A stretch of 40,022 nucleotides of DNA from Thermoplasmata archaeon (GTDB lineage Archaea > Thermoplasmatota > Thermoplasmata > Thermoplasmatales > GCA-001856825): NCBI GenBank assembly GCA_021827945.1, contig JAKATW010000114.1, forward strand, positions 1 through 40,022. The letters run 5' to 3'. Within the stretch, counting starts at the first letter, position 1; the number at the start of each line of letters is the position of its first letter. Shown piece by piece: positions 27,280-31,800 of this stretch. The translations under genes and the position numbers were made by a program. The notes beneath the pieces are model-generated. The model had not been told where the DNA came from. It saw nothing but the letters and a program-made list of their open reading frames with translations, and did no database searches.

Positions 27280-28101
27280 ATGGACTGGGGAATGAGTAAC
27301 AGGCTTTCAAGAATGATAAAACCAAAGACCGGAAGATCGGTAATGCTTGCTGCAGATCACGGATACTTCATGGGACCAACACGAAGGTTAGAAAATCCAA
27401 GAAAGATGCTGGAACCTCTGCTGCCTTATGCTGACACAGTGGCGGTTACAAGAGGGATCTTAAGGACATCGATAGATCCCAGGTGGGATACTCCAATTCT
27501 ACTAAGAGTATCTGGCGGTGCCAGTATATTGAAGGAGGACCTGAGTGATGAAGAGATCACGACCTCAATGAAAGAAGCGGTTAGACTGAACGTTTCTGCG
27601 GTCGCAATTTCAATTTTCGTAGGCACGAATCACGAGAAGCAGTCCCTGATTAACCTCTCAAAACTCGTTAACGAAGGTGAAGAGAACGGAATGCCCGTAA
27701 TGGCAATAACTGCAGTAGGAAAAGAACTGGAAAAGAGGGACGCGAAGTATCTTAGCCTATCCTGCAGACTCGCTGCAGAGATAGGAGCTCATGTTGTAAA
27801 GACTTATTATTGCGAAAATTTCAGGAAAGTGGCTGATGGAACTCCAGTCCCACTAGTTGTCGCTGGAGGGCCCAAACTGGATACAGAACTTGATGTCTTC
27901 AATTTGGTTTACAATGCACTGCAGGAGGGAGCGGTAGGAGTGGATATGGGCAGAAACATCTGGCAGAACGATAATCCTGTTGCAATGATCAAGGCGATCA
28001 GGTCAATAGTCCACGAGAAAGCAACTGTCAAAGAAGCTCAAGATGTATTCTTAGAGAACAAAGGAAAGTCTGCGGAGAAGGCAACGATTCACGGGGCATA
28101 G
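27280..28101 (+). CDS. LsrF/class I aldolase family protein (DeoC-like TIM barrel)
   Basis: This 273-residue protein is a Schiff-base aldolase/thiolase with a TIM barrel. It resembles E. coli LsrF closely along its length: DWGMSNRLSRMIKPKTGRSV, MLAADHGYFMGPT, VTRGILRTS, and the active lysine K174 in GAHVVKTYYCENFRK, then PLVVAGG and GVDMGRNIWQNDNPVAMIKA. LsrF is a thiolase that splits phosphorylated AI-2-derived 3-hydroxy-5-phosphonooxypentane-2,4-dione. Archaeal relatives are also annotated as fructose-bisphosphate aldolase or ADH synthase. Which reaction occurs here is not decided by sequence. It lacks about 29 N-terminal residues of the bacterial protein. An AAGGGGAAAAAT site precedes ATG 27280. 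Confidence 0.85.
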   Translation: MDWGMSNRLSRMIKPKTGRSVMLAADHGYFMGPTRRLENPRKMLEPLLPYADTVAVTRGILRTSIDPRWDTPILLRVSGGASILKEDLSDEEITTSMKEAVRLNVSAVAISIFVGTNHEKQSLINLSKLVNEGEENGMPVMAITAVGKELEKRDAKYLSLSCRLAAEIGAHVVKTYYCENFRKVADGTPVPLVVAGGPKLDTELDVFNLVYNALQEGAVGVDMGRNIWQNDNPVAMIKAIRSIVHEKATVKEAQDVFLENKGKSAEKATIHGA

Positions 28102-28153: not shown

Positions 28154-29719
28154 TCAGGCATTCTTCAACCTTATCTCTTTCCTAAGTTCGGCGCTCAGCC
28201 TTCCTAGCTCTTCCTCATTTTTGTTCAGGAATTTGAATGCACCTTGGAATGAAGGATTTACCTCTGTGGCTAGTCTTACCATCTCTCTGCTGATGTTCCT
28301 AAGATCAAAATGAGCCTGTGGTGTAGACCTTATTTCAGTAAAGTAAACTAGCTCCCTGAGACTCATCGTGACGATCGTTGGATGTTTGTGGGCGAAAACT
28401 ATCACATACTGAGCCGCATTCTTATCCTCTGCATATATTTCTTTGTATAGTCTTTTTGCCTCATCCAACGCCCCTACATATTCTCTCGACAGATCGTCAA
28501 TCTTGGATAATATTGGTGGCATGTCATGACCATAATCCGGGCTCAACATTTTTCTCTGAATCGTCATTGTGCGATGTCTCTGTAGATCCCTGAAAGCCCC
28601 AAAATTAGTGTTAATTTCAAAGGTGTAGTGGACGTGCTCAAAGCTCCTGTCAAGCTTGTTCCTCCTGTTACTCCTGAGCGATACGATTTTGTCAAGCATC
28701 TCTTTCTTCTTTGGAACACTAAGCAACGATATGGTACCATATAGAGACTCATAATCCCCCTCAGTTCTCTCAAAATAGTGACTGGAAATCACCCTATTGA
28801 GGGCCCTTTCATCCCTGTCCCATGACATCAATTTTACAACACTTCTTGTAACTGGTGATCCGGTCATAATGACTTCTGGAATGAAGCTCTTTATGGATTT
28901 GAGATATTCCACACTTTCTAGACCGTGTGGATTTTCAACGTTATCTATTAGCTTGGGAAAAACCAATTTTAGTTCCCTCAGGAGTTCCGAGTACAAAGAT
29001 TCGGCTTCCCTTAAACGACTTGCACTGAGTCTCTCAAGCATATGAGAGAAGGCCCTTGCATTGCCGCTTATGCCTATATTTGTAAGTGTTGAGGCAGGGA
29101 GTATGAACCGAGTTTCATCAAGAGCTCTGCTCCTCACTGAAGAATCATATGCTTTCTTCAAGATCTCTTCCGTTGTATTATCCTCTCCAGGTCTGACTTC
29201 CTTGCCGCTAGGAAGAAAGAATTTGGTATTCTCAAACGAATTGTGCTCACGGATATAATTCGAGACACCCGCGAGAATTTTCTCATAAAGTTCGAAGAGA
29301 GAATCGTTGAACTCTACGTACCTCTGTTGAAATCTTGAGGGAATGTTCGCTCTATCAGGGTCCAGGTACAGATACCTTCCGTTTCTCTTCTCTTTGTAGG
29401 ATACATACCTTGAACTCTTCTCCAGATAGGAAAGTCCTATCCTGCTTTCTTCTATGATCTTGGAAAGTACATTACTGACGTTCTGTATTCCAACTTGGGC
29501 TGTTGCAAGCTCGGCAACGGATTCATCTCCATACTCAAGGAAAACTCTCTCGTAGAATTTTTCAGCTCTATCCGGGACTTCAGCAAACTCCTTGTCCCAA
29601 AGTGTCCTTAAGTCAAGCTCTCGCGTCCTGCTATAGCGAGACATGAGTGCCCCCCTGTCAATCATCTTTTCACAGGTGATAAGAAAAACGTCTTTGTCCC
29701 TGTTGGAAAACGAGTCCAT
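28154..29719 (-). CDS. thyX: Duplicated ThyX-like protein (flavin-dependent thymidylate synthase family)
   Basis: This 521-residue protein contains two ThyX-like halves. The first (about 1-255) keeps the SxxExSxRYV part of the ThyX motif (RIGLSYLEKSSRYVSY, about 93-108) but lacks the RHR before it. It also has a ThyX-like ALDETRFILPASTLTNIGIS and NARAFSHMLERLSASRLREA. The second (about 280-521) has an intact RHR (381-383, FRDLQRHRTMTIQ) but lacks the SxxExSxRY part (IQRKMLSPDYG), and ends with SLRELVYFTEIRSTPQAHFD, matching the ThyX C-terminal motif. Canonical ThyX is about 220-260 residues and tetrameric, so this may be a fused dimer that makes dTMP from dUMP. A TATA box at 29740-29747 fits the ATG at 29719. 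Confidence 0.85.
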   Translation of the reverse strand: MDSFSNRDKDVFLITCEKMIDRGALMSRYSRTRELDLRTLWDKEFAEVPDRAEKFYERVFLEYGDESVAELATAQVGIQNVSNVLSKIIEESRIGLSYLEKSSRYVSYKEKRNGRYLYLDPDRANIPSRFQQRYVEFNDSLFELYEKILAGVSNYIREHNSFENTKFFLPSGKEVRPGEDNTTEEILKKAYDSSVRSRALDETRFILPASTLTNIGISGNARAFSHMLERLSASRLREAESLYSELLRELKLVFPKLIDNVENPHGLESVEYLKSIKSFIPEVIMTGSPVTRSVVKLMSWDRDERALNRVISSHYFERTEGDYESLYGTISLLSVPKKKEMLDKIVSLRSNRRNKLDRSFEHVHYTFEINTNFGAFRDLQRHRTMTIQRKMLSPDYGHDMPPILSKIDDLSREYVGALDEAKRLYKEIYAEDKNAAQYVIVFAHKHPTIVTMSLRELVYFTEIRSTPQAHFDLRNISREMVRLATEVNPSFQGAFKFLNKNEEELGRLSAELRKEIRLKNA

Positions 29720-29835: not shown

Positions 29836-31800
29836 ATGATGTTTACCATTCTTGACCAGGAAAGGAAACTACTTGATGACAGAGTCGCTACTTCGATATC
29901 TCTGGGGGCCAATGAAAATCTAGTTCTCCATGGGGGTGGAAACACAAGCGTCAAATTGAAGGTTCGCAGTGCGGCTGGCAAGGAGATAAGCGCTCTCTTT
30001 GTAAAGAGTTCGGGATCCGACCTGGCCACAGTCACTCCAGAGGATTTTACTGCATTGAAAATGAACGACCTGATGGACGCAAAGCTGATGGAGAGGATGA
30101 GTGATGATGAAATGTCTTCGTTCATCAAGAGTTGTATGTTAGACCCTGATCAGGCATATCCATCAGTCGAGGTTTTCATACACGCTTTCATAAATTCAAG
30201 ATTCGTTGATCACTCTCACGCAGACTATATTGTGGCCCTCACTAATACTAATCTTGACGACAAGACAATAGCAGATGTGTTCAAGGAGAAAATTCTTGTA
30301 ATTCCCTATACACCCCCCGGTTTCAAACTCGCAAGGCACTTTCTGGATACTATAAGCGAAAGAGACCTTTCGAACTTTGCCGGTGTGATATTGAGGAATC
30401 ATGGGCTGGTCACGTGGGGAGATAATGCAAGGGAGAGTTATGAGACCCACCTCAGGCTTGTGAAGGAAGCCCAGACATTCATCGAGAGCAAATGGAAGGG
30501 ACTGCCGACCAAGAATTTTGAGAAAGTAAAAGAGGATGGTCTCATAGAATTTCTTCCAAAACTCAGAGGACTGCTGAGCAAGGAGAAGAAGAAGATTCTT
30601 ACCTGGGATAATTCTGAAGAAGCAGTCGGGTTCTCATTGAGCGATGAGGCAGATAAATTTGCTTCGCTGGGTCCCGCGACTCCAGACATGCTCGTGAGAA
30701 CAAAGAAGAACTACTTATTCTCCGATGATGTTTCAGGGCTGGAAGGCAAGATAGACAACTTTGTGAATACGTATAAAGAGGAATTTGCGAGATATGCTCC
30801 AGCGGGGAGAGCAATGCACGATCCATATCCATCGGTAATCGTGTTGAAAGGTTTTGGTTTGATCACGGCTGCAAGCACAAAGAAAGAATCGGACATACTG
30901 CGTGACGAAGCAATTCATTCTTTCAGAGTAGCATCCGCAGCCCGTGCGATCGGAAAGAATAGGTTTATCACAGACCAGCAGTGTCACGAAATGGAATACT
31001 GGCCGTTCCAAGAGGCAAAGCTGACTAAAAAAAGGAGAAAGGAACTTGAAGGCCACATTGGACTAGTCACAGGAGCAGCAAGCGGAATAGGTAAGGTCAC
31101 CTTTTCTAAGTTTGTGGATGAAGGAATACTGACGATAGGTGGTGACATAGACCAGAAGATCGACGATGTAGCTAAAGAGCTAGGAAGGGATGCTTATGGA
31201 TTGAAATTCGACATTTCAAACGAAGAATCCGTCCAGAGGGCCTATAAGGAGATCGTAAGAAAGTTCGGGGGAATTGACGTAGTCTTCAATAACGCCGGAT
31301 ATCTCAAGCCGTCACCATTGGAGGATACTTCGCTGCAGGATTTGAAGAAACATATCGACATCAACTCGATAGGCACTTTCCTAGTTACCAAAGAAGCTTT
31401 CAGGATTATGAAAAGTCAAGGAATGGGAGGGACTTTCGTCTTTAATGTCACCAAGAATGTCAGCAATCCTGGAGAAGGGATGATGTCCTATGGTACTTCA
31501 AAGGCGTTTGCTGCACAACTCTCACGTTACGTTGCATTGGAGGGGGGAAAGTACGGTATACGGAGCAACGTAATCAATCCAGACAAGATATTTAGGGAGT
31601 CCAAGATTTGGGAGAACGGGATCCTGGAAAACAGGGCGAGGGCAAAGGGAATAACCCCTGACGAATACAAGAAAGGGAATTTGCTACATGTTGAAGTGCT
31701 TCCAGACCACGTGGCGAACATCGTCGTAGAATTGATAAAGGAAAGGGTCTTCGGCGCGACCACGGGCACGATGATACCGATTGATGGGGGAATAAAGTAG
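29836..31800 (+). CDS. Bifunctional class II aldolase / short-chain dehydrogenase
   Basis: This 654-residue protein fuses a class II aldolase domain (about 1-395) with a short-chain dehydrogenase (about 405-654). The aldolase keeps NLVLHGGGNTSVKLK, the zinc histidines H126 and H128 (RFVDHSHADYIVAL) and a third at H189 (LRNHGLVTWGDN). The dehydrogenase has the TGAASGIGK cofactor loop (412-420), NNAG (485-488) and the catalytic Y552-K556 pair (SYGTSKA). The fusion matches the RhaD-RhaE type, which cleaves L-rhamnulose 1-phosphate and converts the lactaldehyde product, or related sugar pathways. Here rhamnose genes are not seen, so substrate is uncertain. ATG 29836 is followed by another ATG. 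Confidence 0.88.
   Translation: MMFTILDQERKLLDDRVATSISLGANENLVLHGGGNTSVKLKVRSAAGKEISALFVKSSGSDLATVTPEDFTALKMNDLMDAKLMERMSDDEMSSFIKSCMLDPDQAYPSVEVFIHAFINSRFVDHSHADYIVALTNTNLDDKTIADVFKEKILVIPYTPPGFKLARHFLDTISERDLSNFAGVILRNHGLVTWGDNARESYETHLRLVKEAQTFIESKWKGLPTKNFEKVKEDGLIEFLPKLRGLLSKEKKKILTWDNSEEAVGFSLSDEADKFASLGPATPDMLVRTKKNYLFSDDVSGLEGKIDNFVNTYKEEFARYAPAGRAMHDPYPSVIVLKGFGLITAASTKKESDILRDEAIHSFRVASAARAIGKNRFITDQQCHEMEYWPFQEAKLTKKRRKELEGHIGLVTGAASGIGKVTFSKFVDEGILTIGGDIDQKIDDVAKELGRDAYGLKFDISNEESVQRAYKEIVRKFGGIDVVFNNAGYLKPSPLEDTSLQDLKKHIDINSIGTFLVTKEAFRIMKSQGMGGTFVFNVTKNVSNPGEGMMSYGTSKAFAAQLSRYVALEGGKYGIRSNVINPDKIFRESKIWENGILENRARAKGITPDEYKKGNLLHVEVLPDHVANIVVELIKERVFGATTGTMIPIDGGIK

Follow-up and report, generated by a model that had tools for sequence, protein, structure and literature searches.

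The protein described here, a ThyX of 521 amino acids with two Thy1 domains in tandem, is very probably an active flavin-dependent thymidylate synthase, in which a tandem duplication was followed by specialisation of the two halves and the active sites are composite. Support for this reading comes from an alignment of 77 tandem proteins and from a set of 73 viral tandems, in which catalytic residues are retained in a complementary way. The gene lies in a stretch of 40,022 nucleotides from a Thermoplasmata archaeon, the whole of which is called the window below. An initial annotation of this DNA had noticed that each half of the protein lacks a different part of the ThyX motif, and had proposed either a composite site in a fused dimer or a loss of thymidylate synthase activity.

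Pfam Thy1 (PF02511) matches the protein twice, with a total of 142.7 bits against a cut-off of 24.8, and a single open frame with two Thy1 domains is what defines a domain-duplicated ThyX. On the NCBIfam thyX equivalog TIGR02170, the protein scores 72.1 bits and stays below the cut-off of 87.9, as do the tandem proteins tested from Parabacteroides, phages and other Thermoplasmatales; unlike these, a tandem of the L063 type scores 139.6. A contiguous RHR...SxxExSxRY motif within one domain is absent, the RHR being found in the C-half only and SxxExSxRY in the N-half only. The lack of the contiguous motif and the missed NCBIfam cut-off are two points on which the protein departs from a canonical single-domain ThyX. 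The gene is flanked by a DeoC-type aldolase (27280-28101) and by a fused class II aldolase/short-chain dehydrogenase (29836-31800), neither of which has an obvious tie to folate or dTMP synthesis. The features are given below, with equivalent positions in T. maritima (TM) numbering and with counts that refer to 77 tandem proteins from archaea, bacteria and phages.

28154-29719, minus strand: tandem ThyX gene, ATG start, 521 amino acids plus stop; full-length homologues in L003-L008 begin with the same Met.
28904-29719, minus strand: N-half (residues 1-272), Thy1 domain, putative subunit roles B and C; delimited by the best Pfam stretch (46-255), the column table and AlphaFold2.
28154-28903, minus strand: C-half (residues 273-521 plus stop), Thy1 domain, putative subunit role A; delimited by the second Thy1 match (28253-28663), the column table and AlphaFold2.
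29627-29632, minus strand: S30-R31, tandem-specific N-half signature beside the folate loop position (Ser in 77/77 and Arg in 76/77 N-halves).
29525-29527, minus strand: D65, equivalent to TM H53 (Asp in 58/77 N-halves).
29519-29521, minus strand: S67, equivalent to TM T55 and Mtb S71, putative contact of subunit B with the FAD phosphate (Ser in all 77 N-halves and in no C-half).
29441-29449, minus strand: E91-S92-R93, the lost N-half RHR with its third Arg kept (R78 in 1/77 and H79 in 7/77 N-halves).
29405-29431, minus strand: S97-Y105, SYLEKSSRY, equivalent to TM S83-Y91, putative active-site loop for dUMP binding (all 77 N-halves have the equivalents of S88, R90 and Y91).
29108-29110, minus strand: R204, equivalent to TM R147 (Arg in all 77 N-halves and in no C-half).
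28646-28675, minus strand: R349xNRRxKxxR358, C-half basic motif replacing GHxS, predicted to line the vacated sites (the S55 column is Arg in 69/77 C-halves).
28571-28579, minus strand: R381-H382-R383, the RHR kept in the C-half, putatively for FAD and dUMP (77/77 C-halves).
28328-28330, minus strand: R464, equivalent to TM R174, putative dUMP-activating arginine by the role given in PMC8316439 (76/77 C-halves).

Aligning the two halves separately to ThyX bore out the split of motif parts that the initial annotation had read by eye: the N-half carries SYLEKSSRY preceded by E91-S92-R93 at the RHR position, and the C-half carries R381-H382-R383 followed by TMTIQRKMLSPDYG, without SxxExSxRY. The same arrangement holds in the 77 tandem proteins of the column table, in which 32 single ThyX, 77 N-halves and 77 C-halves are aligned. 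R78 and H79 are present in every C-half and are nearly always missing from N-halves, whereas S/T55, S88, R90, Y91 and R147 are kept in every N-half; the C-halves retain no S/T55 or R147, and have S88 in 4/77 and R90 in 3% of cases. Y91 and E/Q86, the latter kept in 76/77 N-halves, are likewise listed as restricted to N-halves. The query protein follows this scheme, with S/T55, S88, R90, Y91 and R147 equivalents but neither R78 nor H79 in its N-half, and with R78, H79, R80 and R174 in its C-half, from which the remaining N-half-type residues are lost. When the halves are summed, the set of FAD and dUMP residues (S55, R78, H79, R80, S88, R90, Y91, R147, R165 and R174) is complete.

The split is not total for every residue, since R80 (like E58) is present in both halves and R165 is found in 45/77 C-halves (about 58%) as well as in 73/77 N-halves. 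The R174 column is ambiguous in N-halves, where the LR pair is replaced, one residue is deleted and an Arg or Lys stands nearby, and it is not counted as clean evidence. Neither half retains Q75, a residue conserved in single ThyX, and most C-halves have Asp or Glu in its place. The S30-R31 pair, in turn, is not conserved in single ThyX. The histidine at TM position 53 stacks on folate; T. maritima H53D mutant structures are available (PDB 4kar and 4kas), with which the natural Asp of the tandem proteins could be compared.

Among the 73 unique viral tandems (8 of them shared with the set of 77), every C-half and no N-half has RHR, and every N-half and no C-half has SxR followed by Tyr or a substitute; these loci were retrieved with patterns touching the motif of one half, such that selection bias is avoided only for the absence from the other half. 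The Tyr of SxRY is replaced by Phe, Ala or Lys in some phage tandems (L142, L144, L154, L170, L194 and L207), which may indicate an altered chemistry. An alignment of 60 sequences from the clade of the query and from phage tandems, about 17-35% identical to the query, has only eight invariant columns (R31, S67, S102, R104, R204, R381, H382 and R464), and seven of them are FAD/dUMP-site positions, R31 being the exception. Judged from these alignments, the complementary motif pattern across tandem proteins is not due to chance. The idea that it stems from an alignment or assembly artefact is hardly credible: identity between the halves is only about 16% and makes their alignment delicate, but the motifs are found by plain, alignment-free pattern search and the same full-length frame occurs in independent genomes, the assemblies of which rule out a misassembly.

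The predicted structure has the ThyX fold. With 60 sequences as input, the AlphaFold2 monomer reached a pLDDT of 91.3 and a pTM of 0.89 and consists of two ThyX-like halves; a model built with 7 close homologues had been unusable (pLDDT 38.8). Foldseek matched T. maritima ThyX with a probability of 1.00 and a target TM-score of 0.69, one half being aligned at a time, and gave full-length matches to viral models, among them a thymidylate synthase from a Microcystis phage.

Published structures place the motif parts of one ThyX site on different subunits, and it is from these papers that the subunit roles used here are taken. In the site that holds the FAD of subunit A, RHR and Mtb R199 (TM R174) come from A, the FAD partners Mtb S71 (TM T55) and R190 (TM R165) lie on subunit B, and subunit C contributes Mtb R87, S105, R107 and Y108, the last three corresponding to TM S88, R90 and Y91 (PMC6514825). 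Equivalents of Q75 and R174 have been located on one monomer and that of S88 on another (PMC3498832), and R174 has been assigned to dUMP activation, with S88, R90 and Y91 supported in catalysis (PMC8316439). Residue retention in the tandem family tracks these published roles almost exactly, which would make the C-halves the bearers of role A, and the N-halves those of roles B and C. The retention of R147 in N-halves only predicts that it acts in role B or C; in the T. maritima structure this residue binds dUMP.

On this assignment, two chains would form a pseudo-222 tetramer. One C-half would supply RHR and R174 to each working site; of the two N-halves, one would add S55 and R165, the residues for the FAD phosphate, and the other S88, R90 and Y91, those for dUMP. 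Under 222 symmetry, if the site at g uses g, gx and gy, its completion would need C-halves at g and gz and N-halves at gx and gy; the site at gz would then be complete too, and those at gx and gy would be vacated. C-halves at A and D with N-halves at B and C would thus be the sole arrangement that completes sites in a two-chain tetramer. The composite site suggested by the initial annotation is therefore supported by published structures in its principle but refined in its stoichiometry: as each site would draw on three halves, one C-half and two N-halves, the working unit would be a dimer of tandem chains. Provided that the role assignment is valid, such a dimer would have two complete sites, and the two sites centred on N-halves would be vacated.

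At the RHR position, the N-halves mostly have Glu followed by Glu or Asp, and most C-halves carry RxNRRxKxxR in place of the GHxS segment. It is possible that this basic motif and the acidic pair form salt bridges in the vacated sites. We regard as rather unlikely the further idea that the vacated sites serve a second conserved function, being lined by these two elements and either binding a regulatory nucleotide or locking the tetramer by salt bridges; if true, tandem ThyX would be an asymmetric, allosterically controlled thymidylate synthase.

The tandem ThyX is the only thymidylate synthase detected in its source genome (1.83 Mb in 161 contigs, 87.5% complete), where it occupies the single Thy1 locus. 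Neither a second ThyX nor a ThyA nor a thymidine kinase was found there, and genes for SHMT and thymidylate (dTMP) kinase are present. Three thymidylate-kinase-like matches occur in this genome (G000:C141:1703-2889 and G000:C143:3167-3679), two of them adjacent on one contig. Across the order, ThyA was found in 0/91 genomes and ThyX in 87/91, including 50/50 of those at least 90% complete; the caveat of an incomplete source genome is largely removed by these near-complete relatives. A second full ThyX or ThyA in this genome, combined with loss of binding residues in both halves, had been named in the initial annotation as what would refute a composite site, and no other ThyX or ThyA was found.

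These observations bear on the other proposal of the initial annotation, namely that the protein has no thymidylate synthase activity and carries out another flavin- or nucleotide-dependent reaction. The incomplete classical motif of either half, the TIGR02170 score below cut-off, the change of H53 to Asp and the loss of Q75 from both halves all point that way and count against an active ThyX. Nevertheless, a loss of activity would leave the genome with no other detected thymidylate synthase, in an order where ThyA was not found, and with no detected thymidine kinase; the FAD- and dUMP-binding residues are invariant once the halves are summed, and genes of dNTP metabolism stand beside one phage copy (dCMP deaminase, adjoining) and one plasmid copy (dCTP deaminase, nearby). 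We therefore consider this alternative improbable. In other protein families, fused proteins often include one degenerate half, and the protein might accordingly be a thymidylate synthase with one working half and the other as a structural scaffold. The odds of this are slimmer still, as the full residue set is in neither half and both have invariant catalytic residues. The most fitting description of the protein is probably a tandem ThyX that functions as ThyX does.

Homologues that span the whole tandem protein are present in Thermoplasmatales and other Thermoplasmata (L059-L066), on plasmids of Parabacteroides, Euzebya, Miltoncostaea, Bacillus and Paenibacillus, and in phages; those that are annotated bear the thymidylate synthase name only. 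A viral search with a single protein as query gave no matches, and the viral tandems were recovered by searches with alignments as query. The search seeded with the second Thermoplasmata type returned four short matches, apparently single-domain or partial. In a FastTree phylogeny that sampled groups other than Chloroflexi, all 33 N-halves sampled group in one clade (support 0.975), as the 33 C-halves do in a second (0.898), an outcome for which one old fusion would account; the branches are long, and some long-branch attraction may contribute to these clades. Distances among N-halves and among C-halves correlate (Mantel r 0.875, 0/2000 permutations); together with the clades, this agrees with a single fusion, after which the halves were inherited together and transferred horizontally. 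Purifying selection acts on both halves, with synonymous changes saturated and pN of 0.09-0.25. Thermoplasmatales families f1 and f3 have the tandem form and f2, f4, f34 and f35 the single form. The sampled single ThyX of these sister families fall outside both clades of tandem halves, and the tandem gene was thus probably swapped with a single ThyX through horizontal transfer.

The composite-site reading makes a definite prediction of stoichiometry, with two sites for every two chains. It would also account for the way in which a widespread, uncharacterised form of ThyX works in archaeal families with no other detected thymidylate synthase, an explanation that would extend to the tandem ThyX of large phages. 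The family can be regarded as a natural experiment on three-subunit sites, in which one ancient fusion would have been followed by a division of catalytic residues according to subunit role.

Domain duplication in ThyX has been known since 2009, when it was reported for Chloroflexi except Dehalococcoides in proteins called uncharacterised (Valas and Bourne 2009, PMC3224940). Those proteins, compared here by their description only, likewise have two Thy1 domains per chain; unlike the present column table, that paper contains no residue analysis or mechanism. The 491-position profile PHROG 36506 ('thymidylate synthase') matches viral tandem L108 over nearly its whole length and P0001 in part, and the Microcystis phage LMM01 protein A0A7D4 is a full-length fold match to tandem ThyX; both are annotated as thymidylate synthase only, with no mention of the split of residues. 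In a literature search that took in few subscription journals, we found no description of complementary residue loss in tandem ThyX. An analogy is offered by the fused HdrA of ANME archaea, an unrelated enzyme in which the two fused copies have likewise lost complementary cofactor ligands and which its authors read as a heterodimer (PMC9012536). With single-domain ThyX (TM0449, PF02511), the tandem form shares the Thy1 fold and, when its halves are summed, RHR, SxxExSxRY, R147 and R174. It differs in that these residues are split over two fused, divergent halves, H53 is replaced by Asp, Q75 is lost, and two complete sites are expected instead of four. Single-domain ThyX has been studied as an antibacterial target, and the tandem form would reveal which of its contacts are separable.
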